In this document: piece by piece, positions 3,242 through 38,098 of the stretch
Numbering within the stretch: the stretch's first letter is position 1
Layout of the letters: each line of letters begins with the position of its first letter
Origin: a virus
IMG/VR virus record: IMGVR_UViG_3300044682_000028
Location: 1 to 38,724 of that record
Length of the DNA stretch: 38,724 bases
Reading direction: 5' to 3' (one strand)
Position numbers and translations under genes: made by a program
Notes under the pieces: model-generated
Database searches by the model: none
Told to the model about the DNA's origin: nothing
Seen by the model: the letters and a program-made list of their open reading frames with translations, nothing else

Positions 3242-4006
3242 ATGGCGTCGACTCCGTACACGGTCCTAAATCTCATCTCGCGTTCCATGCGCCTCGTCGG
3301 CGCGCTCAATGTCGGCGATGCTCCGACCGCGGCAGAATTGCAGGATGGGCTCGAAGCACTGAATGCGATGGTCGACGCCTGGGCGAATCAGCGGCTCTTG
3401 ATCTACACGACGCAGCGCCTCCTGTTCGGTCTCAACAGCGGGCAACAGAGCTACGAAATTGGACCCAACGCGGTCGACTGGGTGACGGCGCGGCCGGATT
3501 ATCTGGAGGGCGCCGGCCTGGTGTATGGCGTCGGCGGCGTCAATTTCGAGCGGCCGGTCGAGATTTACACCTGGGACGAATGGCAGAATCAACGCTCGAA
3601 ACAGCTCTCGACGTCCGTTGTCACTGCGCTGATTTATGACTACGGCTTTTCGAATCCGAACTCGAGCGCGACGGATACGGGCTCGGGTACGGTCTTCGTG
3701 TGGCCGGTTCCGAACGCCACGGGCCTGCTCGCGCTCTATCTTCCGCTCGCGGTGCAACAATTCACGAGCGCCAATCAGACGGTCTCGCTTCCGCCTGGCT
3801 ACCGGCGCGCGCTGCAATACAATCTCGCGGTCGAATTCTCGCCTGAATTCGACACGGAGCCCTCGCCCGTGGTGCTCGCGATCGCCGAGTCTTCGCTCGA
3901 CTACATCAAACGCAACAATGTGCGCCTGAACGCGCTGCGCTGTGATCCGGGGATGGCGCGGCATCAACGCGGCGGGCAGGCTTTCAATCTCTACGTAGGC
4001 GAATAA
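3242..4006 (+). CDS. P22 gp4-like tail accessory / head completion protein
   Basis: This 254-residue protein matches the P22 tail accessory factor gp4 family, which binds under the portal after packaging and begins to close the head. The N-terminal signature is visible: LISRSMRLVGALNVGDAP, then AELQDGLEALNAMVDAW and a QRLLFGLNSGQQSYEIG strand region. The end (PPGYRRALQYNLAVEFSPEF) is also typical. It is longer than P22 gp4 (166 residues), as many relatives are. ATG 3242 has AAGG about eight bases upstream. Its TAA overlaps the next ATG by one base (4006), implying translational coupling to gp10. In P22, gp4 also has weak muramidase activity; nothing here tests that. Confidence 0.9.
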   Translation: MASTPYTVLNLISRSMRLVGALNVGDAPTAAELQDGLEALNAMVDAWANQRLLIYTTQRLLFGLNSGQQSYEIGPNAVDWVTARPDYLEGAGLVYGVGGVNFERPVEIYTWDEWQNQRSKQLSTSVVTALIYDYGFSNPNSSATDTGSGTVFVWPVPNATGLLALYLPLAVQQFTSANQTVSLPPGYRRALQYNLAVEFSPEFDTEPSPVVLAIAESSLDYIKRNNVRLNALRCDPGMARHQRGGQAFNLYVGE

Positions 4007-5250
4007 TGGCGGCTTTCGAAAACTTCATCGGCGGCAGTTATCAAGGGCGATCGCAGCAACAGGACGCGGAGCGCTCGGCGAACCAGTACGTGGAACCGGC
4101 GGGCGCCGCGGGCGCGAACGCCAAAGGCGCGGCCGTGCTGCTCTCGAAACCGGGCCTGGCGACGTTCGCGACGTTCGCGGCCGGCGCGGTCGTGAGCGAA
4201 TGCGCGCTCAACGGCCGCGGCTTTGCCGTGGTACAGCTCGGCGCCTCCAATTACTTTTATGAAGTGCTGGCGAGTGGGCTCTCGATCAACTACGGCACGC
4301 TGCCGGGCGATCGCCGGTCGCAAATGTGTGCGAGTCAGAATCAAATCGTGATTTTGTCGGGCGGGCTCGGCTTCTGCTTTACGCTCGCGACGAATACGCT
4401 GGCGCTCATCACGTCGGGCGCTTTTCCGATTGGCGCGGTGAAGGTGGGCAATCTCGACGGCTACTTCGTCGTCCTCGAGCCGAATTCGCAAGTCTTCGCG
4501 ATCTCGTCTCTGAACGATGGAACCACCTGGAACGCGCTGGATTACGGCGACGCCGAAGGCGAACCGGGCAACATCACGACGTTTATTGTGGACCATCGGC
4601 AAATCTGGTTTTTTGGGAACAATCACGCCGAAATTTACTACGACTCGGGCGCGGCGAATTTTCCGCTGGCGCGGCTCGAGGGCGCATTTATGGAACAGGG
4701 CGCGGGCGTGTGTATCGATGGGCTTTTCCAGTGCGATAACACCATCTTTTGGCTCGGCGGCAACCGTGACGGGCAGGGGATTTTCTGGCGGGCGAACGGC
4801 TATCAACCGACGCGCATTTCGACGCCGGCGATTGAGTACCTGGTCGAACAATGGCCGACGCTCGCCGATGTGTCGGGCTACTGTTACCAGGAATCGGGGC
4901 ACACCTTCGCGCGCTGGGATGCGCCTAGCGCGAACGGCGGGCTCGGCGCTTCGCTGCTCTTCGATGTGCTCTCGGGCTTCTGGCACGAGCGCTTTTTTTG
5001 GAACGCTTCGCTCGGGCTCGAGCTGGCCGACTTAGCGCGCTCGCACATGTTCGTCTTCGGTAAACATCTCGTCGGCGATTGGCGTTCGGGCACAATCTAC
5101 GAGCAAAGCATGCAATACAATTCGGACGCCGGCGCGCAAATTCGGCGCATCCGCGCGGCGCCGGATCTGTCGAACGGCGGCAAGTACGTCAAGTACGCCG
5201 AATTTCGGTTGCTGTGCGATGTGGGCGTGGGCCGGGCGGTGGGGAGTTAA
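4006..5250 (+). CDS. P22 gp10-like DNA stabilisation protein, lacking its C-terminal part
   Basis: This 414-residue protein is the tail hub or plug of the gp10 family, which binds gp4 and keeps packaged DNA inside. Family features are FENFIGGSYQGRS near the start, repeated beta-propeller-like strands, FGNNHAEIYYDSG, and the late block FGKHLVGDWRSGTIYEQS followed by IRRIRAAPDLSN. Relatives continue after a VGVG-type segment with a SxDGGRxW strand block. Here the gene stops right at that point. The missing block is found at the end of the next gene (5250-6476). The two parts add up to about 480 residues, near P22 gp10 (472). The TAA and the next ATG overlap by one base in the -1 frame. Confidence 0.88.
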   Translation: MAAFENFIGGSYQGRSQQQDAERSANQYVEPAGAAGANAKGAAVLLSKPGLATFATFAAGAVVSECALNGRGFAVVQLGASNYFYEVLASGLSINYGTLPGDRRSQMCASQNQIVILSGGLGFCFTLATNTLALITSGAFPIGAVKVGNLDGYFVVLEPNSQVFAISSLNDGTTWNALDYGDAEGEPGNITTFIVDHRQIWFFGNNHAEIYYDSGAANFPLARLEGAFMEQGAGVCIDGLFQCDNTIFWLGGNRDGQGIFWRANGYQPTRISTPAIEYLVEQWPTLADVSGYCYQESGHTFARWDAPSANGGLGASLLFDVLSGFWHERFFWNASLGLELADLARSHMFVFGKHLVGDWRSGTIYEQSMQYNSDAGAQIRRIRAAPDLSNGGKYVKYAEFRLLCDVGVGRAVGS

Positions 5251-6476
5251 TGCCGACTCTTCAATACCGCGGCGTCATCGCGTTGACGTTTAGCCGCTTC
5301 GCGCCGATCACGCTCTCGGGTACGTGGGTGGGTGATCCCTCGGGCGTCGGCGCGCTCTCGCAATCGTATGACCTCATTACTCAAGCGCTCTCCTTTGGCG
5401 GCGCGGCCGGCTACGTGGCGCCGTGGTCCTTCTTCATGCTGCTCAATGGGAAGTACAACTTCGTCACCATCTCGAATTCTCAGTCGGGCGGCAACACCGC
5501 GGGCAACGCGCTCACAGGTTTGCTCATCGCCGGGCACCTGATAACGGGCGGCATTACATCGGCCGGGCTCGTCGTTGTGAACGATACGCTGCTCCCGGCG
5601 ACGCTCACGAATGCGACGATCGCGCTCAATAACCTACCGATGACGACGGGCTGCGGGACGATCACGGGCGTTGTTGACACCGGCTATCCTATGCCGGTTA
5701 CACTCGGGCCCGGCGATCAGTCGTACGGCCTCCCTTTTCAGAATTTCACGGACGGCTACAATCGGCTCGCGCTCTACACGCCGGGCGGCGTCGCGCATGC
5801 GCCGGCGCTTTTCGGCGCGCTCTACGACAGGCAGATGTTCAACGCTTGCGACGTGATCAACGGCATCAATTACACGTACTGCAGCCAGATCGGCTCGAAC
5901 AATTTGCAGGTTTGGCGCTTCAATCCGGCGAGTGGCACGATTACGTTTTCCACCTATAACGAAGCTATCCTCGTTTCCGCGCCGGGCACGGGTATCAGCG
6001 AGTTTGACAAGCCGACACCGTACGGCTTTCAATTTAGGGACGCAACGCTCGGGCTCTGCCTGTGCGATATGTCGATGCAGAACTACTGGCAGCTGCAAGT
6101 GAGCTCGCCCGTGTCGTACCTCGATCAAATGACTTTCGACGCGGGCGGGATTGCCTACGCTTTCGGCAACGATGGCAATGCTTATTGGTCCGGCGTGCCC
6201 TACTTGAGCGCGATCGTCGGCGCGGGCGGAATTCCGGCAGGCGGCGCGCCGGTCACGGGCACGGGCGTTACTCCGCAAATGATCTTGCAAGTGTCGAACG
6301 ACGGCGGGCGTTCCTGGGGAAATGAACGCACCGCGTCCCTCGGCGCCCTCGGCGCGACGCATACGCTGGTCCGCTGGCGGCGCCTGGGGCGCTCGCGCAA
6401 TCGCTGCTTTCGGACGATCTGTACTGAGAACGTGAACGTCGCGCTGGTCGCGGCCGATCTGGATAGCTCGCGCTAA
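5250..6476 (+). CDS. Unknown domain fused to the displaced C-terminal block of gp10
   Basis: This 408-residue protein has two parts. Residues 1 to about 340 are an all-beta-looking domain rich in Gly, Thr and Ala, with several Cys (for example in NACDVINGINYTYC and LGLCLCDMS); I do not recognise it. The last ~65 residues (ILQVSNDGGRSWGNERTAS, then LVRWRRLGRSRNRCFR) are the block that normally ends gp10-family proteins. So this gene carries both an insert and the tail of its neighbour. It starts at ATG 5250, overlapping the stop of gp10 (TAATG), without its own ribosome site. Reinitiation is the simplest reading. A -1 frameshift joining the two would also restore one polypeptide. The insert may form an extra tail lobe in the place where P22 has its needle gene 26. 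Confidence 0.85.
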   Translation: MPTLQYRGVIALTFSRFAPITLSGTWVGDPSGVGALSQSYDLITQALSFGGAAGYVAPWSFFMLLNGKYNFVTISNSQSGGNTAGNALTGLLIAGHLITGGITSAGLVVVNDTLLPATLTNATIALNNLPMTTGCGTITGVVDTGYPMPVTLGPGDQSYGLPFQNFTDGYNRLALYTPGGVAHAPALFGALYDRQMFNACDVINGINYTYCSQIGSNNLQVWRFNPASGTITFSTYNEAILVSAPGTGISEFDKPTPYGFQFRDATLGLCLCDMSMQNYWQLQVSSPVSYLDQMTFDAGGIAYAFGNDGNAYWSGVPYLSAIVGAGGIPAGGAPVTGTGVTPQMILQVSNDGGRSWGNERTASLGALGATHTLVRWRRLGRSRNRCFRTICTENVNVALVAADLDSSR

Positions 6477-29488: not shown

Positions 29489-30007
29489 GTGTTCGAAGCG
29501 ATCAAGCATCCGCGCAAACGCTGCTTTCTCGGCGCGTATAGCCTTACCGGCAACATCAAATTCGCGGCCGGCTGCGCGGGCGTGCGCCGCGAGCTGCACT
29601 ATGATTGGCGCGCCGCGGATCCCGAGTACGCGGCGGCGTTTCTTCGCGCGAAAGAGATGGCCGGCGACGCGCTCGAGGACGAATGCAAGCGGCGCGCGCA
29701 TAAGGGAACTAAGGAAGTCGTGCTGTACCAGGGGAAGCCGGTCTATCTCGAGAAGGTCTCGGCCGATGGCGTCGTGACGCGCAAGGCGCTCCAGCGCGTG
29801 AAGTATTCCGACTCGATGATGATGTTTTTACTCTCGGGCCTGAAGAGCGAGACGTTCCACGAACGCCGCGAAATCGCGCATTCGGCGCCGGAAGCGATCG
29901 CCCTGAAAGTCGACGTGACACATAAGGCCGATTTGAGCGGCCTCTCTGAAGATGAGCTCTCTTACCTCGAGCGGCTCGCCGCAAAACTTAATTTCTCTAC
30001 TTCGTGA
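29489..30007 (+). CDS. terS: Terminase small subunit
   Basis: This 172-residue protein has the features of a small terminase that recognises the packaging site. An N-terminal helix-turn-helix (about 8-45: KRCFLGAYSLTGNIKFAAGC, then AGVRRELHYDWRAADPEYAA) is followed by FLRAKEMAGDALEDECKRRA and the block YSDSMMMFLLSGLKSETFHE, which is typical of the family in front of its oligomerisation end. It starts at GTG 29489, right after a TAA, and overlaps the large subunit by 56 bases. P22 gp3 has the same genomic place. Confidence 0.85.
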   Translation: MFEAIKHPRKRCFLGAYSLTGNIKFAAGCAGVRRELHYDWRAADPEYAAAFLRAKEMAGDALEDECKRRAHKGTKEVVLYQGKPVYLEKVSADGVVTRKALQRVKYSDSMMMFLLSGLKSETFHERREIAHSAPEAIALKVDVTHKADLSGLSEDELSYLERLAAKLNFSTS

Positions 30008-30695
30008 CGCCGAAGCGGAGCGGCTGCGAAGGACTGGTCGACTCATTGATAGCTACTTTCCCAACACCGGAGAACATCGGCGAGAACGGTACGTCAAACA
30101 TCTGGACTTTTTCAAGGCCGGCGCGACGCACCGAGAACGCCTGTTTATGGCCGGCAATCGCGTCGGCAAGAGTGACACGGGCTGCTACGAAGACACGCTG
30201 CATCTCACCGGCGACTATCCGCACTGGTGGGAAGGCCGGCGCTTTGCGTGTCCGGTAGAGTGCTGGATTGCGGGCGAGACCAATCTCACCGTGCGCGACA
30301 TTCTCCAGAAGAAGCTGCTCGGCGCCTGGGGCTCATTTGGCACGGGGATGATTCCGCGCGACGCGATCGTGCATTGGACGGCCAAGCGCGGCGTTGCGGA
30401 TTCGGTGGATACCGTTTTCGTGCGGTCTCTCAATGGTGGGGTCTCGAGCTTATCGTTCAAGAGTTACGCGGAAGGGCGCCAAAACTTTCAGGGCACGGCG
30501 AAACACGTCATTCACTTCGACGAAGAGCCCAGTCAAGAAACGTATATCGAGGCTTTGCTGCGCACCATGATCGTGCCCGGCTGTGACACGGGCGGCTTGA
30601 TGATGGTCACATTTACACCCATAGAAGGTTGGTCGACATTGATAGAAGACTTCCTCGCCGGCGTCGAGTCTCAGAACGCCGCGCCGAGTGAATAG
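29952..30695 (+). CDS. terL: Terminase large subunit, ATPase half (split gene)
   Basis: This 247-residue protein is only the N-terminal motor domain of a large terminase, the ATPase that pumps DNA into the head. It shows the Walker A motif at 67-74 (AGNRVGKS), Walker B at about 185-192 (HVIHFDEE) and the coupling motif at 220-223 (TFTP). A KHLDFFKAGATHRERLF block precedes the P-loop, as in relatives. A stop follows at the point where other terminases enter a linker to the nuclease. The nuclease half is encoded alone 4 kb away (34686-35408); together they give 487 residues, a full-length terminase. The start ATG 29952 has GAAG next to it and lies inside terS. Confidence 0.92.
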   Translation: MSSLTSSGSPQNLISLLRDAEAERLRRTGRLIDSYFPNTGEHRRERYVKHLDFFKAGATHRERLFMAGNRVGKSDTGCYEDTLHLTGDYPHWWEGRRFACPVECWIAGETNLTVRDILQKKLLGAWGSFGTGMIPRDAIVHWTAKRGVADSVDTVFVRSLNGGVSSLSFKSYAEGRQNFQGTAKHVIHFDEEPSQETYIEALLRTMIVPGCDTGGLMMVTFTPIEGWSTLIEDFLAGVESQNAAPSE

Positions 30696-31617
30696 CACGC
30701 TGTACGTCGTTACGCCGATCTTCAACCCGGCCGGTTTTCGCGCGCGGGCTCGCCTGTACCATCCCTTCGCGGCGCACATGGCCGCATCCGGCGCTGTGCT
30801 CGTCACGGTCGAGGCGGCTTTCGGTGATCACGGCTTCGAGGTAACGGACTCGTTCGATCCGATGCATCTGCAGCTGAGAACCTCGGCCGTCCTGTGGCAT
30901 AAAGAGCGCATGATTAACCTCGGTATCGCGCATCTGCTGCGCCTGGTCCCGGACGCGCAGTACATTGCCTGGATCGACGCCGATGTGACGTTTTCAAATC
31001 CCGATTGGGCGGCGCAAGCGGTCCATCAGCTCATGCACCATGCTGTGATTCAGCCGTACTCGGAAGCGATCAGCCTGGACGCGAAAGAACAGTATTTGTG
31101 GAATTGTCCGTCGTCGTTTCGCTCCTACATCGACGGGCGCGGCTACCACCAGACGCCGCCGCTCCCGGCGAGCTACATCTATAAAGGGCATCCGGGGCTC
31201 GCCTGGGCCGCAACGCGCTCGGCGCTCGATTCACTCGGCGGGCTGTACGATACCTGCGTTGCCGGCTCGGGCGATACGGTCATGTCGAACTGTCTCAAGG
31301 GGCAATGGGATGTGTACCTGCCGGCGCCTCCGTCCGCGGGCATGGCGGCTTCGATGGAACGTTGGGCGGCGCGCTGCGATCGCTCGATCCACGCGAACGT
31401 CGGCTACGCGAACGGTTCACTCTTGCACCATTGGCACGGTCGCAGCGAAGCGCGCGGCTACGAGAAGCGCTGGTCGATTCTTTCGTATCATCAATTCGAT
31501 CCGGTGCATGATCTCGTCATCGACTCGCAAGGGATGTACGCCTGGGCCGGCAACAAACCGCGCCTCGAAGACGATATCCGGTTAAGTCTCACGTCGCGCA
31601 ACGAGGATGAGTTTTAA
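30688..31617 (+). CDS. GT-A type glycosyltransferase-like protein
   Basis: This 309-residue protein has a glycosyltransferase A fold signature: TLYVVTPIFNPAGFRAR at the start, a DxD motif (Asp97 and Asp99 in WIDADVTF) for metal and sugar-nucleotide binding, then YKGHPGLAWAATRSALDSLG and AGSGDTVMSNCLKG. The HHWHG stretch near the end is typical of a phage group of this type. It starts at GTG 30688, eight bases inside the terminase ATPase gene. It is the first gene of the insert between the terminase halves. Targets could be virion proteins, DNA bases or host surface sugar; sequence does not tell. Confidence 0.82.
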   Translation: MNSTLYVVTPIFNPAGFRARARLYHPFAAHMAASGAVLVTVEAAFGDHGFEVTDSFDPMHLQLRTSAVLWHKERMINLGIAHLLRLVPDAQYIAWIDADVTFSNPDWAAQAVHQLMHHAVIQPYSEAISLDAKEQYLWNCPSSFRSYIDGRGYHQTPPLPASYIYKGHPGLAWAATRSALDSLGGLYDTCVAGSGDTVMSNCLKGQWDVYLPAPPSAGMAASMERWAARCDRSIHANVGYANGSLLHHWHGRSEARGYEKRWSILSYHQFDPVHDLVIDSQGMYAWAGNKPRLEDDIRLSLTSRNEDEF

Positions 31618-31843
31618 TGGGGCGATGCACTGGTCCTGGACTACCTTCTTCGCTGAATTGGCGGGCGGGCTGGTCGGCGCGTTCGTCGGCGGTTGCCTGT
31701 GGCTCTTTGTCGTGGCGCCGCGGCTTGTCGATCGCCTCATCGCGCAACGGCTCGACTCGGAACACGGCACGCTGCTAAAAAACACGATCGCGGCCGGCGT
31801 GGCGGCGGCCGCGTTTGCCGACGAGCTCGAGCGGCGGAATTGA
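31607..31843 (+). CDS. Single-span membrane protein, holin candidate
   Basis: This 78-residue protein has one long Gly-rich membrane segment (about 14-38: FFAELAGGLVGAFVGGCLWL) followed by a basic stretch (APRLVDRLIAQR) and an amphipathic Ala-rich helix. Translation is set at ATG 31607, inside the glycosyltransferase gene; ATG 31625 is an alternative. Small single-span proteins in a late operon may be holins or spanin-like factors. No lysozyme lies beside it. The role is uncertain. Confidence 0.7.
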   Translation: MSFNGAMHWSWTTFFAELAGGLVGAFVGGCLWLFVVAPRLVDRLIAQRLDSEHGTLLKNTIAAGVAAAAFADELERRN

Positions 31844-32173
31844 ATGCTCTTCTACACCTCGATCCGCGATGATGCAGACGGCCGCTATTTAGGTTGGGTC
31901 TTCTACAACGCTCCCACGCCGGACGCGGCGAACGCGCACGCGGCGCACCTCTTCGCGCAAGCGAAGTCGATCGAGGGCGGGGGGCCTCTCGTCCTGGCGC
32001 TCGAAATCGATACCGTCGCGGTCGCGCCGGGCTCGATCGGTCTGCCGGCCGATTGCATCGGGCGCTTACTTGGGCGCGCCGATCTCGCCCGCGTCGAAAT
32101 TCTCGATCAAGAGCGCATGTTCCGAATGGCGCGCCGCGAAAAAACCTCGGATACTGCAAAGAGGCCTAACTAG
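31844..32173 (+). CDS. Hypothetical protein in the terminase insert
   Basis: This 109-residue protein (LFYTSIRDDADGRYLGWVFY, then APTPDAANAHAAHLFAQAKS and RLLGRADLARVEILDQERMF) seems an alpha/beta domain. ATG 31844 directly follows the previous TGA. I know no family. The ordered hydrophobic pattern and tight spacing make a real gene likely. It stands third in the insert between the terminase halves. Confidence 0.7.
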   Translation: MLFYTSIRDDADGRYLGWVFYNAPTPDAANAHAAHLFAQAKSIEGGGPLVLALEIDTVAVAPGSIGLPADCIGRLLGRADLARVEILDQERMFRMARREKTSDTAKRPN

Positions 32174-32193
32174 GTCGATGGAGAGTGGATCCG

Positions 32194-32328
32194 ATGGCAA
32201 CCAAGACGAAAGCAAAGAGCGGCAAGTCGGCCGTTGTGCCGACGAAAGCAATGAGCTCGACGAGTAAGGCGAAGGGCGGCAAGGCGACGAAAGCGGCGCG
32301 CCGGCCGGCCAAGAGCGAAACCTCGTAG
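32194..32328 (+). CDS. Tiny Lys/Ala-rich basic protein
   Basis: This 44-residue protein is almost entirely Lys, Ala, Ser and Thr (ATKTKAKSGKSAVVPTKAMS, then AKGGKATKAARRPAK), like a histone H1 tail. GGAGAG lies about seven bases before ATG 32194. Such proteins can bind DNA without sequence preference. Being expressed with packaging genes, it could condense DNA or enter the head. It is too short for the usual gene finders. Confidence 0.6.
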   Translation: MATKTKAKSGKSAVVPTKAMSSTSKAKGGKATKAARRPAKSETS

Positions 32329-32355
32329 CAGCGAAATTCTGAAAAGTTTGGGCGC

Positions 32356-32396
32356 GGGCGTTGTTCCCACTGATCCGGGAACGGCGCCCTTTTTTT
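32356..32396 (+). terminator. Strong intrinsic terminator inside the late operon
   Basis: The arms gggcgttgttccc (32356-32368) and gggaacggcgccc (32377-32389) pair over 13 bases with two G-T pairs. They are followed by seven T (32390-32396). The next gene's ATG is the very next base (32397). Downstream late genes then need read-through, antitermination or a new promoter. Confidence 0.85.
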
Positions 32397-32681
32397 ATGG
32401 CTAAAAAATCATCTGCGTGGGCGCATAAGAACGTCCCGAAGTTTTCCAAACCTCCGACGCCGGCCGCGTCTACCGTGCTCGATCTGGTGTTGATCTGGCG
32501 CGACTCGGCCGACGTGGTGCATACGCCGAGTGGCTACCTGCCGGCGACGTCGTACGAAGCGGTACGCGCCGAAAATCCCGCGCTCGCGCTTCCGCCGCTC
32601 TCTGAAATTCCGGTGCATTCGAAAGAATGGGCGCTCGAAGCGTCGGCGCGGATGGCCGCGGAGTGTCCGCGCGTCCAGTGA
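32397..32681 (+). CDS. Hypothetical protein starting right after a terminator
   Basis: This 94-residue protein begins with a basic stretch (KKSSAWAHKNVPKFSKP), followed by VLDLVLIWRDSADVVHTPSG and a helical end. ATG 32397 touches the T tract of the terminator, so it has no ribosome site. In-frame TTG 32361 would start inside the hairpin and add 12 residues. Its TGA overlaps the ATG of the next gene (TGATG). No known family. Initiation may depend on whether the hairpin forms in the mRNA. Confidence 0.65.
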   Translation: MAKKSSAWAHKNVPKFSKPPTPAASTVLDLVLIWRDSADVVHTPSGYLPATSYEAVRAENPALALPPLSEIPVHSKEWALEASARMAAECPRVQ

Positions 32682-33424
32682 TGGGCCGGGCGCGTCTGCG
32701 CGTGCAACAAGCCGCGATGATCGGCCGGCGCGATCGCCGGAAAGAGCTCAAGCGTACGGCCAAAGCGCGCGAACGTGAGCGCGTGGCGTTCGTCGCGATT
32801 GATTGGTACTTTTACAAACAACGATTTTCACCCGCGCCGCGCGCCGGCCTGCTGCAAACCAGTTTGAGCGATGCGAGCAATGCGAGTAACTGGGCCGCGC
32901 TCACAACGGCAGAAATACGCGCCCTCGACGCCAAAGCGAACGCTTACCTGGTCTCACGCGGGCAAAGCATCACGGCGCGCGACGTCCACAATTACGCAAC
33001 GGGTTCCTCTTTTTACATGCAACAAGCGACCAACCGATTAAGCGCTCAAGACAAGCGCGAACGCAAAGCCATGATCGACGAATACGGCGACCTCGTGAAA
33101 CGACTGGCGCCGGTCAAACCCGATATGTCGCGCCTCACGACGTTGACGGCCGCGATTCGCAGCTGGTATGAAGATGCGGACGCGACGGCGAGCGTCTCGG
33201 CGTTCGGCGAGCGCTACGTGGTCTCGCTCGGGCCGCGCGGCAATCAAACCAAAATCGAAAACATGCAAGACGTCTTCGCGGCGCTCGGCCGTGAGCGTTT
33301 TCTCTCCGTCTGCTCGCTCTCGCTCGCGAACCTGGCGGCGGCGCTCGACAATCCCGATGCGTACACGGTCTCGGAGCAAACCGGGCCGCGGCCGTTGACG
33401 GTGCAGGACACGGGCGGCGGCTAA
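32681..33424 (+). CDS. Hypothetical protein with basic N-terminus
   Basis: This 247-residue protein has a strongly basic helical start (RRDRRKELKRTAKARERERV), then WYFYKQRFSPAPRAGLLQTS and a mainly helical body (LTTAEIRALDAKANAYLVSR, then QATNRLSAQDKRERKAMIDE). No motif known to me is present. Its ATG overlaps the previous stop. The basic start suggests nucleic-acid or membrane contact. It is the largest gene of the insert after the glycosyltransferase. Confidence 0.7.
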   Translation: MGRARLRVQQAAMIGRRDRRKELKRTAKARERERVAFVAIDWYFYKQRFSPAPRAGLLQTSLSDASNASNWAALTTAEIRALDAKANAYLVSRGQSITARDVHNYATGSSFYMQQATNRLSAQDKRERKAMIDEYGDLVKRLAPVKPDMSRLTTLTAAIRSWYEDADATASVSAFGERYVVSLGPRGNQTKIENMQDVFAALGRERFLSVCSLSLANLAAALDNPDAYTVSEQTGPRPLTVQDTGGG

Positions 33425-34084
33425 ATGCACGGCGCCGACTGGAACGTCCAAACCCTCTACGCCTTTTTCGAAGCGGCGTATCAGGAAATCGGGCGCGACG
33501 TCGAATCCCGCTTTGCGGCAAACGAGGTGCTCGCGCAATCACGCCGCAACGCGCTCGAGATTGCGTTGAAAGCGGTGGAAGACCTCGCAAGCCTGGCGCA
33601 CACCGACATTGAGAAGTCGATTCTCAAGGCAGAACGAGACACGGATCGGCGCTTCGACGCCGCGGCGCTGGCCGCGGAGAAGGCGGTTCAGAAGGCCGAA
33701 ACCGCGACGGATAAGCGCTTCGAATCGGTGAACGAATTCCGCAAGACTTTGTCGGATCAAACCGCGCTTTTCGTCCCGCGTACGGAAGTCGATAAACGCT
33801 TCGACGCGGTCGACGAGTTCCGCTCGCGCTCGACGACGACGATTGCGGCGTTTGTCCCGCGCGGCGAAATTGAAGCGGGGCTGCGCGCGATTAACGACAA
33901 GCTGGCGAGCGAAGTCAAGAGCATCAACGAACGCTTAGGCGCGCTCGGGCTGCAGCTCACCGCCGTCGTGGAAACCAAAAACGGCGCGCGGCAGAACTGG
34001 GCCATGATCGCGATGGCGATATCGATTACGGCGCTGATCGTGGGCATTGTGATGACGTTCGTACGCTTCGCGGGGGGTAAATAG
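33425..34084 (+). CDS. Coiled-coil protein with C-terminal membrane anchor
   Basis: This 219-residue protein is a long coiled coil with internal repeats (DKRFESVNEFRKTLSDQTAL and DKRFDAVDEFRSRSTTTIAA, each followed by FVPR) and one C-terminal membrane segment (about 193-214: WAMIAMAISITALIVGIVM). Such proteins are common in phages near lysis genes; the role is not known. It starts at ATG 33425, immediately after the previous stop, and ends six bases before the beta-barrel gene. Together with the two neighbours it may form an envelope-acting unit. Confidence 0.75.
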   Translation: MHGADWNVQTLYAFFEAAYQEIGRDVESRFAANEVLAQSRRNALEIALKAVEDLASLAHTDIEKSILKAERDTDRRFDAAALAAEKAVQKAETATDKRFESVNEFRKTLSDQTALFVPRTEVDKRFDAVDEFRSRSTTTIAAFVPRGEIEAGLRAINDKLASEVKSINERLGALGLQLTAVVETKNGARQNWAMIAMAISITALIVGIVMTFVRFAGGK

Positions 34085-34090
34085 GAAACC

Positions 34091-34483
34091 ATGATCGTCA
34101 AGGCGACACGCGAAGGGATGCTCGGCGACATGACGGCGTCGGGCTGGCGCATTGATGCGACTCGTCTGTTCTGCGCGCTCCCGTCAACCAAAGCGCTGCG
34201 GCGTAGCGTCCTGATTACCAATCCGGCGAACGGTAAAAGCACGCGCGCGGAAGTGCTCGACGTCGGGCCCTGGAACGTCCACGATGATGCGTACGTGCTC
34301 GGCGGCTTACGTCCGCTGGCCGAATCCGGCCACAAAATCAACCTGCTCGGGCAGATGGTGCAAGGCATAACGAACGGCGCCGGCATCGACTTGGGCGAGG
34401 CAGTATGGGCGGCGCTCGAAATGACGAATAACGGGCCGGTCGACTGGCACTTCGACGACATCGAATTGACGGCGGCGGCGTGA
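34091..34483 (+). CDS. RlpA-like double-psi beta-barrel protein, endolysin candidate
   Basis: This 130-residue protein resembles the double-psi beta-barrel domain of RlpA-type peptidoglycan enzymes: TREGMLGDMTASGWRIDATR, then LPSTKALRRSVLITNPANGK, AEVLDVGPWNVHDDAYVLGG and NGAGIDLGEAVWAALEM. The Asp residues in DVGPW and GIDLG are at the usual active-site strand ends. In P22 a lysozyme follows the holin; no lysozyme, amidase or transglycosylase of a standard type is visible here, so this is the best candidate for the lysis enzyme. AGGAAA precedes ATG 34091. It lacks a signal peptide. Confidence 0.7.
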   Translation: MIVKATREGMLGDMTASGWRIDATRLFCALPSTKALRRSVLITNPANGKSTRAEVLDVGPWNVHDDAYVLGGLRPLAESGHKINLLGQMVQGITNGAGIDLGEAVWAALEMTNNGPVDWHFDDIELTAAA

Positions 34484-34689
34484 GCGATACGAACGCGGAC
34501 GCCATTCTCGAAGAGAGTTTGCTCGACTACATCGCGGAGTGCGATCGCGAAACGGCCGAAATGATGCGGACGCAAAGCGGCCACTACGCGCCGGGCTATA
34601 GCGATCAAACCGCGAATCACAGGCCCTGGACGCCGGAACGCTATGCGCGCCGGCAGGCGGCGCGCGACGAAAAAAAGCGCGGGGCGTGA
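34480..34689 (+). CDS. Small hypothetical protein before the terminase nuclease half
   Basis: This 69-residue protein is acidic at the start (DTNADAILEESLLDYIAECD) and basic at the end (RPWTPERYARRQAARDEKKR). It starts at GTG 34480 overlapping the previous stop, and its TGA overlaps the GTG of the nuclease gene. It is the last gene of the insert. No family is known. The double overlaps suggest tight translational coupling of lysis-like genes to the nuclease. Confidence 0.65.
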   Translation: MSDTNADAILEESLLDYIAECDRETAEMMRTQSGHYAPGYSDQTANHRPWTPERYARRQAARDEKKRGA

Positions 34690-35408
34690 GCAAATACGTC
34701 GTGCAGGCGGGCTGGGCGGACGCGCCGCATTTGTCGCCGGCCGTCTGCGAGGAGCTGCTCGCCAGTATCCCGTTTCACCAGCGCGAAGCGCGCATGAATG
34801 GCACGCCGGCGCTCGGCGACGGCAAGATCTACCAGGTGCCCGAAGAGGACTTCCGCATCGCGCCGTTCGTGATTCCGCCTCACTGGAAACAAGCCTACGG
34901 GCTCGATGTCGGCATCAATCGCACCGCGGCCGTGTTCGGCGCGCTCGACGAAGACTCAGACATCCTCTATCTCCACTCGCTGCATTATGCGGCCGACGCG
35001 ATCGCAGCGATTCATGCGGAAGCGATCAAGGCGCGCGGCGCCTGGATTCCCGGCGTGATTGATCCGTCCGCACGCGGGCGCAATCCGGTCGACGGCGAAC
35101 GCCTCATCGAAGTGTATGAACGGCTCGGCCTGCATCTCTCGCTGGCCGACAATTCCGTCTCGGCCGGCATCTACGCCGTGACGCAACGGCTCGTCTCGGG
35201 CCGGCTGAAGGTGTTCGCCTCGCTCTCCGAGTGGTTCGGCGAGTATCGCTTGTATCGGCGCGTCAAGGGCAAAATCGTCAAGGAAAAAGATCACGCCATG
35301 GACGCGACGCGCTACCTCGAGATGAGCGGGCTCGCAATCGCCAAAGCGGCGCCGGCGCCTCCCTCCTGGGACCAGCGGCGCACGGGCTCGAGTCGCTGGA
35401 GCGGCTAA
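34686..35408 (+). CDS. terL: Terminase large subunit, nuclease half (split gene)
   Basis: This 240-residue protein is the RNase-H/RuvC-fold nuclease half of a large terminase, which cuts packaged DNA. The first 65 residues (KYVVQAGWADAPHLSPAVCE, then SIPFHQREARMNGTPALGDG) are the linker region that in other phages is continuous with the ATPase. The metal-binding Asp residues are in place: Asp74 (YGLDVGINRT), Asp126 (GVIDPSARGR) and Asp202/Asp206 (EKDHAMDATRYL). The first residues after the GTG at 34686 are already homologous, so the break is at the domain boundary. The two halves must work as separate chains or be joined in some way. It overlaps the previous stop by three bases. Confidence 0.92.
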   Translation: MSKYVVQAGWADAPHLSPAVCEELLASIPFHQREARMNGTPALGDGKIYQVPEEDFRIAPFVIPPHWKQAYGLDVGINRTAAVFGALDEDSDILYLHSLHYAADAIAAIHAEAIKARGAWIPGVIDPSARGRNPVDGERLIEVYERLGLHLSLADNSVSAGIYAVTQRLVSGRLKVFASLSEWFGEYRLYRRVKGKIVKEKDHAMDATRYLEMSGLAIAKAAPAPPSWDQRRTGSSRWSG

Positions 35409-35627: not shown

Positions 35628-35924
35628 TTACTCGTTCCGCGGGCTGCTGCCGATCCAACGGAGCGCGCGCTGGTAGCGTCTCGGCTCGTTGCGCCGCAGC
35701 TTGTCGCCGATCTCGCCCCAACTCAAGCCATCGGCGACGGCCGCGGCGCGCAGCTCCATGGCGGCGTCGACGGCGTCGCGCCACGTCAAGAAATCGCCCT
35801 GCAGGTAAACGCGACCATCCCGAAATAAGACTTTCCACTCGCCCTGGCGGTACAGGACGCTCGCGCGGTTCAATTCGATCCACGCGATGCGCTCGGCGTC
35901 TGTGCGCTCGTTCTGCTGCTCCAT
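35628..35924 (-). CDS. Antisense-oriented small protein upstream of portal
   Basis: This 98-residue protein (ERTDAERIAWIELNRASVLY, then EWKVLFRDGRVYLQGDFLTW and AAMELRAAAVADGLSWGEIG) has a clear helix-strand pattern and runs against the late genes. It starts at ATG 35924 with GGGGAG directly in front, only 14 bases from the portal start on the other strand. Its own promoter must lie within the portal gene start. Such lone reverse genes are typical of morons expressed from the prophage. Function is unknown. Confidence 0.72.
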   Translation of the reverse strand: MEQQNERTDAERIAWIELNRASVLYRQGEWKVLFRDGRVYLQGDFLTWRDAVDAAMELRAAAVADGLSWGEIGDKLRRNEPRRYQRALRWIGSSPRNE

Positions 35925-35938
35925 CTCCCCAAACTCCC

Positions 35939-38098
35939 ATGAAAACTCCTGCGTTGACGAAACCGCGCGCGAAGAAAACCGGCGCCGCGCTCGAGACTTT
36001 TTTACGTGTCATGCGAGAACGGTTCAACTCGATCGAAGAGGCAGAGCGCGACATACGCAACGACGCGCTCGAGGATTGGCAGTTTCGCGCCGGCGACCAA
36101 TGGGACGAAGAAATCGAACGCGCGCGCACCGCGGACGATCGCCCGTGCTACACCATCAACCGGGTACAACAAATCGTTCGACACGTCACCAACGAGCAAC
36201 GCCAGCAACGGCCGGCGATCGAAGTTTCGCCGGTGGGCGATGGCTCGGACGTCTCAACCGCGGAAGTGCTGCAGGGCGTAACGCGCCACGTGGAAGCGAA
36301 TTCCGACGGCGATATCGCGTACGATACGAGTTTCGATTCGATGGCGACGGGCGGCTTCGGCTATTTTCGCCTGGCGCCGGAATACCTGCACGCCAAGAGC
36401 TTCGATCAAGAACCGAAATTTCATCGGGTGCTCAACCCGTTCTCGGTCTACTGTGGGCCGGCGAAAAAAGCCGATTACTCCGACATGCGCTATTGCATCG
36501 TGACGGATGACATTCCGCATGATGTTTTCGAAGCCGAATATCCGCAATCGGAGCTCGCCGGGCTGAATGAATTCTCGGGCGAAGGTGATCGGGCGCCGGG
36601 CTGGATCCGCGGCGACGGCGTGCGTGTCGCCGAGTACTTCTACATTGAATCGGAAAAACGGACGATCGTGATGGGGCGCGACTCGAAGGTGTACTTCGAA
36701 GACGAGCTGCCGCGCGGCGTCAAGATCGCGACGAATCCGAAAACCGGCGAACCGTACAAGCGCGAGACCGATATCGATACCGTCTATTGGTGTAAAACCA
36801 ACGGCGTCGAACTACTCGAAGATGAAATCGAAGTAGCTTGCGACTACATCCCGGTTGTGCCCGTCCTCGGTGAAGAATTCATCGTCGAAGGGCGCCGCTA
36901 TCTGGTCGGCGTGGTGCGCTACTCACGCACTCCCAACCAGATGTATAACCTCTGGACGTCGGCGATGGCCGAAACGATCGCGCTTGCGCCGAAAGCTCCC
37001 TGGATCGCCACGCCGGCGCAAATCGAAGGCTTCGAGCGCTACTGGAATTCCGCCAACGTCACGAACTGGTCGACGCTGCTTTACAACCCGGACGCGAAAG
37101 CGGCCGGCGCGCCCCATCGCGATTTCGCGGAACCTCCGATTCAAGCCATTTCAGAAGCGCTCGGCCACGCCGATATGGACTTGAAAAATACCTCGAGCTT
37201 CGATCCCGCGCTCGCGCAACATGGGCCGGAACAGAGCGGCAAAGCGCTGATCTTACGCCGGCAGAATAGTGATCAAGCCAACTTTGGATTTCAGGACAAC
37301 ATGGCGCGGGCGGTGCGGCATGGCGGGCGCATTGTCGTGTCGATGTGGCAACGCCTGGCCGATGTGCCGCGGACCGTGCGCGTGCTCAACCCTGACGGCA
37401 CGAAGGACCAGGTACAACTCGGCGTGCAAACCACCTACAAGGGCGCGCAAAAGGTGTTCGATTTGACGATCGGCGATTACGACGTCGCGGTCTCGACGGG
37501 TCCTTCGTATCAGTCACGCCGGCAGGAAGCAACCGAAAGTATCCTCGGGCTGGTGCAGAGCTTTCCGCCTCTCATGCAATTCTGCGGCGACTTGCTGGTG
37601 CGCGATATGGACTGGCCGCAATCGCAAGAGATTGCCGATCGCTTGAAGAAAATGCTTCCGCCGGCGCTGCAGGATCCCGCGGACGGCTCGCAACCGATTC
37701 CGCCACAAGCGCAGCATACGCTCGCCAATCAGGACCAGATGATTAAGCAGTTGACGACGGCGGTGCATGCCATGTCGGCGAAGCTCGAAGCGCAACAAAT
37801 TCAGAGCGCGTCACGCGAACGCATTGCGCTCATTAACGCGCGCGCCGGCATCCTCGAAGCGGCGCTCAAGGCCTCGAGTACCGAAGCGCTCGCGATCTTC
37901 AACGCGGATCTGGCGCAGATTGATCGGCAAATCGCACTGATCCCGGATCCCGCGCTCGGACAAGAAGCCGACGCGCCGGCTACCGGCCAAACCGCACCGG
38001 CACCAGCAACGCCGGCTGCTCCGGGGCCTCCAACGATCGCGGCGGCGCCTCCTGGCGCGGCGCCGGCCGCGGCGCCGGCTGCTCCCCCTGGAGCGTAG
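35939..38098 (+). CDS. Portal protein, P22 gp1-like
   Basis: This 719-residue protein is the portal, a dodecameric channel through which DNA enters the head (P22 gp1 has 725 residues). Family blocks are visible: ERDIRNDALEDWQFRAGDQW, then PCYTINRVQQIVRHVTNEQR, FDSMATGGFGYFRLAPEYL, NPFSVYCGPAKKADYSDMRY, and GVVRYSRTPNQMYNLWTSAM. The last 150 residues hold a helical barrel-like part (LANQDQMIKQLTTAVHAMSA) and a Pro/Ala-rich tail. ATG 35939 has no evident ribosome site and lies 14 bases from a divergent gene. The scaffold gene follows across the join. Confidence 0.95.
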   Translation: MKTPALTKPRAKKTGAALETFLRVMRERFNSIEEAERDIRNDALEDWQFRAGDQWDEEIERARTADDRPCYTINRVQQIVRHVTNEQRQQRPAIEVSPVGDGSDVSTAEVLQGVTRHVEANSDGDIAYDTSFDSMATGGFGYFRLAPEYLHAKSFDQEPKFHRVLNPFSVYCGPAKKADYSDMRYCIVTDDIPHDVFEAEYPQSELAGLNEFSGEGDRAPGWIRGDGVRVAEYFYIESEKRTIVMGRDSKVYFEDELPRGVKIATNPKTGEPYKRETDIDTVYWCKTNGVELLEDEIEVACDYIPVVPVLGEEFIVEGRRYLVGVVRYSRTPNQMYNLWTSAMAETIALAPKAPWIATPAQIEGFERYWNSANVTNWSTLLYNPDAKAAGAPHRDFAEPPIQAISEALGHADMDLKNTSSFDPALAQHGPEQSGKALILRRQNSDQANFGFQDNMARAVRHGGRIVVSMWQRLADVPRTVRVLNPDGTKDQVQLGVQTTYKGAQKVFDLTIGDYDVAVSTGPSYQSRRQEATESILGLVQSFPPLMQFCGDLLVRDMDWPQSQEIADRLKKMLPPALQDPADGSQPIPPQAQHTLANQDQMIKQLTTAVHAMSAKLEAQQIQSASRERIALINARAGILEAALKASSTEALAIFNADLAQIDRQIALIPDPALGQEADAPATGQTAPAPATPAAPGPPTIAAAPPGAAPAAAPAAPPGA

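Follow-up and report, generated by a model that had tools for sequence, protein, structure and literature searches.

A P22-type large terminase encoded in two separate genes with cargo between them, and the recurrence of this split among related loci

The large terminase (TerL) is a standard marker of tailed phages and an essential motor that is usually treated as one polypeptide. In the IMG/VR virus record IMGVR_UViG_3300044682_000028, which we analysed as a whole (38,724 bases, a virus contig without end repeats; hereafter the window), the coding sequence of a P22-type TerL is found in two open reading frames (ORFs), TerL-N and TerL-C, that lie 3,990 nucleotides (nt) apart with a set of other genes between them. 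The question raised by this locus is whether such a terminase is broken, is restored to a single chain, or works as two chains. The original prediction, made from the letters of the DNA, had favored a functional two-protein terminase over decay. From the comparisons described below, we consider it probable that the two ORFs encode a working two-chain TerL whose junction takes up cargo genes.

Two parts of a P22-type terminase and the site of the break

TerL-N and TerL-C are two parts of a P22-type large terminase. The boundaries given for both ORFs by the original prediction were correct, as was the combined length (247 + 240 = 487 aa), and the motifs it had named are present and conserved in relatives, namely Walker A (GNRVGKS), Walker B (VIHFDEE) and TFTP in TerL-N, and Asp74, Asp126, Asp202 and Asp206 in TerL-C. 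TerL-N shares 63% identity with its counterparts in the related loci L003 and L109, and its best PHROG match was PHROG 31467 (E 4e-63). From residue 43 on, TerL-C matched the solved nuclease domain of the P22 terminase, 4dkw (E 3e-18). The ATPase motifs and the RNase H-like nuclease with metal-binding Asp residues that mark a P22-type TerL (Terminase_6N / Terminase_6C) are thus both in place, but on two ORFs rather than on a single polypeptide. The same domains and motifs occur in the P22 large terminase gp2, which is one polypeptide, whereas the window encodes them in two genes 4 kb apart. An intact terminase elsewhere had been named as a finding that would speak against the original prediction, and no further TerL was found in the window besides the two halves. 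As a side observation, PHROG 31467 (261 aa) is labelled "unknown function", which is probably an annotation gap.

The split had been predicted to lie exactly at the linker on the domain border, and here the prediction had to be revised. In the one-ORF relative L116, Terminase_6N spans residues 41-270 and Terminase_6C spans residues 301-431, and the break maps to approximately residue 218 in one-ORF relatives. It therefore falls inside Pfam Terminase_6N, about 50 residues before the end of the domain and about 70 residues upstream of the first nuclease Asp. In the window, the family match runs over positions 1-154 in TerL-N and continues weakly in TerL-C over positions 165-213 of 215 (E 0.025). 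An AlphaFold2 model of L116, built with 67 sequences (mean predicted local distance difference test score, pLDDT, 91.5), placed a strand at residues 220-225, helices at 235-244 and 247-255, and the nuclease from about residue 286. The block 211-220 had a pLDDT of 73, a dip within an otherwise confident ATPase domain. The modelled fold matched the D6E, P22 (4dkw), T4 and HK97 terminases, and isolated P74-26 ATPase domains (about 250-258 residues) aligned to it over about 246-274 columns. Going by the Pfam limits, the model and the extents of the P74-26 domains, we place the break inside the ATPase domain and not at its border. The last strand predicted for the ATPase region is on TerL-C, together with two helices, and this strand would join the ATPase sheet if the model holds. 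Within this ATPase-domain segment of TerL-C, W10, H15, R36 and G39 are essentially invariant.

Recurrence of the split and constraint on both halves

The original prediction had suggested a search for related phages with the same split, and this search was productive. Scans of viral contigs and bacterial genomes yielded 215 distinct loci with both halves, 124 with one ORF and 91 split. Similarity to the window and its relatives guided the choice of loci, so the 42% that are split should not be read as a frequency in the population, and frameshifts may account for a few of the split calls (L133, for example). The homology to TerL-N ended at query residue 234-247 in all split loci except L133, and the homology to TerL-C started at query residue 1-4 in all split loci but one. 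Because the same break is present in 91 of 215 related loci, the split goes beyond chance. The inserts vary. The gaps range from overlapping start and stop codons to 6.2 kb: the halves overlap or are at most 12 nt apart in 32 loci, and the remaining gaps measure 13-60 nt (7 loci), 61-500 nt (26), 501-1500 nt (12) and more than 1500 nt (14). Split loci also occur as prophages in genomes of cultured bacteria, including Halomonas sp., Azospirillum spp., Sphingopyxis flava, Kushneria aurantia DSM 21353, Sphingomonas melonis and Bradyrhizobium sp., and in the public circular genome MW202785 each half is annotated "large terminase protein". In three loci, terL-C apparently starts at ATT where relatives have ATG, GTG or TTG (L144:6428, L166:8001, L090:8921).

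Two trees showed clades made up of split loci only. In the larger tree (198 rows), parsimony required 21 changes between the split and fused states, at least 13 of them forced by strongly supported branches, and these counts do not separate splitting from refusion.

The residues K73 (Walker A), D190/E191 (Walker B), TFTP and the nuclease residues D74, D202 and D206 are kept in essentially all split loci. Exceptions are limited to gaps and to occasional shifts in the alignment, which in four or five rows affect D126 and D206. When split relatives were compared in pairs, the window against L003 and L109 included, the ratio of nonsynonymous to synonymous substitution rates (dN/dS) was approximately 0.05-0.25 for both halves, with dS near saturation for many pairs. 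In the 20 split virus records that were checked, no other TerL was found, only the two halves. The locus thus shows one mark of genes in pieces, two open and constrained halves that jointly make up the usual protein. Pairwise distances of the two halves agreed with r 0.44 in split loci, less closely than in one-ORF loci (r 0.64), in a sampling not controlled for divergence; this hints that the halves diverge more freely or are exchanged.

A proposed two-chain motor, its rivals and its origin

We propose that TerL-N supplies the nucleotide-binding motifs (Walker A, Walker B and TFTP), and that TerL-C supplies the end of the ATPase domain, with one predicted strand and two helices, together with the RNase H-like nuclease. 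After translation, the two chains would most likely pair into one motor subunit, with the ATPase fold completed in trans. The break may be tolerated because the loop in which it falls, next to the TFTP helix on its C-terminal side, is variable and modelled with low confidence. Once open, the junction could serve as a cargo slot; in the window phage it holds nine ORFs.

Several observations weigh against this proposal. A clear Shine-Dalgarno sequence was not seen at the start of TerL-C, and a strong terminator lies between the halves, so that they may differ in amount unless there is readthrough or antitermination. Regarding the origin of the break, no endonuclease or remnant was found in the window insert when four endonuclease-type sequences were used in tblastn searches, which gave chance-level matches only. 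In addition, near relatives differ in cargo only (L196 has no insert, L219 one small ORF and L212 an HNH gene), so endonucleases may enter junctions that are already split.

The insertion of 4 kb into an essential gene could be taken as a sign that terL is decaying, with TerL inactivated and the phage or prophage defective, and damage is indeed apparent in a few relatives, namely L133 and L019, the second of which has part of the nuclease duplicated. However, the halves are open, their motifs are retained, purifying selection is strong and whole clades are split, and decay is therefore very unlikely in our judgement. These indirect lines, together with the 20 records that hold only the two halves, give good indirect support to the original prediction of a functional two-protein terminase in place of decay. 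The record is a virus contig without end repeats, and one might suspect that unrelated contigs had been joined within terL. Yet the separate contigs L003 and L109 share the split and similar small genes in the gap, and because splits of this kind also occur in genomes of cultured bacteria, we give misassembly almost no credence. It also seems unlikely to us that the two proteins act apart, TerL-N as a motor alone and TerL-C as a free headful nuclease, with no single subunit formed. Motors of the phi29 type do without a nuclease domain, and the lower distance agreement in split loci would fit such independence, although it may reflect sampling; the invariant ATPase segment retained by TerL-C would be odd in a stand-alone nuclease.

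The halves could also be exons, with a group I or II intron or a split intein restoring a single TerL polypeptide. Such cases are documented, as group I introns split terL in Jug phages (PMC12363816), in Bastillevirinae (PMC11878797) and in a Staphylococcus phage (PMC11934314), and inteins occur in TerL (PMC7156551). Among the relatives, L004 has an intein-like insert at Walker A (L004:3832-5592), and its TerL-N is also split from the nuclease half. The terL of the Jug phages and Bastillevirinae resembles that of the window in being interrupted by inserted DNA, but those introns splice, whereas the window gap has no detectable intron. Specifically, scans with Rfam 15 families, at gathering and at relaxed thresholds, found no group I or II intron in the window, and we rejected an intron-split terL for the lack of intron RNA in the gap. 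A split-intein TerL was likewise rejected, as TerL-C begins at the conserved SKYVVQAGW and a Pfam scan gave no intein family; moreover, TerL-N ends about 24 residues past TFTP, too short for an intein half. The insert is packed with overlapping ORFs, and the 32 split loci whose halves overlap or lie within 12 nt leave no room for an intron. Taken together, these points make the exon explanation extremely unlikely.

Returning to the two-chain TerL, the most likely cause of the break, for some lineages at least, is the arrival of mobile HNH-type endonuclease genes, whose insertion would have left both pieces open, each with its own start codon. The junctions of several relatives hold endonuclease genes: HNH_3 with AP2 in L040, endonuclease VII in L086, and one HNH family in L211, L205 and L212. 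In L021, an HNH endonuclease gene is found directly 5' of terL-C, and L027 has an AP2-like remnant, a 46-aa ORF with similarity to the end of the L040 protein that contains AP2 (41% over 39 aa, E 9e-5). An endonuclease gene or remnant is present in the junction of seven loci in all. At their own starts, the HNH ORFs L211:7399-7995 and L021:929-1516 nearly duplicate the 5' end of terL-C (MPAITESRYLVQA against MPAITASRYLVQA for L211). Because of this near-copy, the insertion appears to resupply the displaced start of terL-C. An endonuclease origin is thus likely for the split as a phenomenon and unproven for the window phage. A broader proposal has, in our estimate, about an even chance of being right: a large part of the P22-type family would run as a motor that needs both chains, with a strand and helices of the ATPase domain contributed by the nuclease chain; the state would have changed many times, driven by HNH-type endonucleases that resupply the displaced 5' end; and the middle of the gene would be a standing cargo slot.

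Split essential phage genes are already known, as are two-ORF TerLs, and the window presents a P22-type variant with a cargo gap. The plaque-forming Arthrobacter cluster AY phages (BlueShadow, BillyTP) have TerL in two ORFs (PMC12820723, PMC11920828), with ATPase and nuclease on separate genes as in the window phage. However, the AY genes are consecutive and overlapping, belong to another TerL family (TerL_nuclease PF20441) and are split into 359 + 198 aa, and the nuclease proteins of the window family and AY (BillyTP was used) showed no meaningful similarity. The window therefore differs from an AY-type two-ORF TerL both in gene order and in TerL family. Closer to the proposed origin are phage Aeh1, whose NrdA is split by MobE and is active, and phage 25, whose split gene 43 parts co-purify (PMC2988022); there, as in the window terL, an essential gene is in two open parts. 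As in Aeh1, an HNH-type gene is found in the gap in relatives of the window, and mobE contains a terminator, as does the window gap. Unlike Aeh1 and phage 25, where function was tested, the window is known from sequence, and its gap holds nine ORFs and no endonuclease. In the herpesvirus UL15 terminase gene, an intron contains UL16 and UL17 (PMC3079670), so the coding sequence is likewise in two parts with whole genes between them and a content that varies by lineage; UL15 differs in being joined by eukaryotic splicing and in having its internal genes on the opposite strand. In the open-access literature, we found intron, intein and AY cases only, and no report of a recurrent split of P22-type TerL with cargo.

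The split suggests a motor of two chains and a break that can be used again and again to house cargo genes. Should the split hold for 91 of 215 sampled relatives, TerL will be missed or miscounted when trees are built, completeness is checked and genomes are annotated. A natural break inside the ATPase domain also offers a ready test of domain communication in TerL, and the many independent state changes open gene splitting and refusion to study. Furthermore, the junction illustrates how an essential late operon can accept cargo while the essential gene itself is kept.

Cargo in the junction and neighboring genes

The gap is filled by nine predicted ORFs, where eight genes had been predicted (Table 1), and it also contains an intrinsic terminator that the original prediction had not named. 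The predicted overlap with both halves was confirmed: on one side, the GTG start of ORF 1 lies within the end of terL-N, and on the other, terL-C starts with a GTG that shares bases with the ORF 9 stop.

Table 1 Coordinates of the split terminase, the genes between its halves and the flanking genes in the window.
Feature	Coordinates	Strand	Evidence and remarks
TerS (terminase small subunit)	29489..30007	+	PHROG 4044, E 7e-26; overlaps terL-N
TerL-N, ATPase part of large terminase, 247 aa	29952..30695	+	Terminase_6N positions 1-154/215, E 4e-16; Walker A residues 68-74, Walker B 187-192, TFTP 220-223
Insert ORF 1, glycosyltransferase-like, 309 aa	30688..31617	+	weak Glyco_transf_34 match, E 0.04
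Insert ORF 2, small, apparent membrane stretch, 78 aa	31607..31843	+	ORF call; no family
Insert ORF 3, 109 aa	31844..32173	+	ORF call; PUA_3 match sub-threshold only
Insert ORF 4, Lys/Ala-rich peptide	32194..32328	+	Lys-rich counterparts in L003 and L109
Intrinsic terminator	32356..32396	+	13-bp stem then T7, -25 kcal/mol
Insert ORF 5, small protein	32398..32681	+	resembles short ORFs in L003 and L109 inserts
Insert ORF 6, 247 aa	32681..33424	+	C-terminal half 42% identical to L252 ORF
Insert ORF 7, coiled-coil-like, C-terminal membrane-like stretch, 219 aa	33425..34084	+	ORF call
Insert ORF 8, RlpA-like by motif, 130 aa	34091..34483	+	65% identity to L252 ORF; no Pfam match
Insert ORF 9, 69 aa	34480..34689	+	stop overlaps terL-C start; no family
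TerL-C, ATPase-domain end and RNase H-like nuclease, 240 aa	34686..35408	+	Terminase_6C, E 5e-7; nuclease Asp74, Asp126, Asp202, Asp206
Portal protein	35939..38098	+	PHROG 156, E 1e-119; downstream of terL-C

The protein of ORF 1 is 39% identical over 99% to a Xanthomonas jumbo phage protein. Lys-rich peptide ORFs are found at the place equivalent to ORF 4 in L003 (7574-7696) and L109 (6056-6181), and L003 has a terminator at the corresponding place (-17 kcal/mol, T7). ORF 5 and the L003 ORF 7762-7959, each preceded by the terminator, look alike by eye, YERMREAHPELALP against YEAVRAENPALALP. Since the window groups with L003 and L109 in a single clade with full support, the remaining cargo was probably gained or lost later. 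In the viral contig L252, the ORF related to ORF 6 adjoins the homologue of ORF 8, and no TerL-C match was found there; ORF 8 and part of ORF 6 therefore travel without this terminase. Neither ORF 6 nor ORF 8 matched the reference phages, a pattern-based search of viral contigs returned no relative of ORF 6, and ORF 7 had no family above the cut-off in Pfam or PHROG. The lysis-type genes that the original prediction had placed in the insert find little support, as the tested ORFs match no lysis family and the RlpA-like reading of ORF 8 comes from sequence motifs.

Across the relatives, the cargo is mixed, with endonucleases, a GDSL hydrolase, a resolvase, a MotA/ExbB-like protein and many ORFs without assignment. 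The loci L020 and L022 have close terminases and different large cargo ORFs in junctions of about 2.8 kb, one of which, in L020, has a GDSL hydrolase domain, which points to a rapid turnover of cargo. A small protein (about 50-86 aa, '..ERGI..G..S..IAR..') recurs in the junctions of L068, L070, L078, L082, L094, L123 and L219, in a clade that includes Halomonas-type hosts. The expectation that the terL junction takes far more cargo than the TerL/portal boundary was only partly borne out. More than 500 bp was found in the junction of 19 of 69 split loci and before portal in 6 of the 69, whereas such pre-portal inserts were commoner in one-ORF loci (23 of 81). The contrast looks as if the cargo slot had shifted into terL.

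The late module of the window is podovirus-like, with TerS, TerL, portal (PHROG 156), scaffold, coat (PHROG 283) and head closure, and a tyrosine integrase is also encoded. Homologues of TerS precede terL-N in L003 and L109 too. Between terL-C and portal, a minus-strand ORF (35628-35924, 98 aa) runs opposite to the direction of the module. The head-closure protein Hc3 is also split (window 4006-6476): its N-terminal part is the ORF 4006-5250, and its last 76 or so residues form the C-terminus of the next ORF, 5250-6476, behind about 330 unrelated residues. In the L003 genome, both Hc3 parts are in one continuous ORF.

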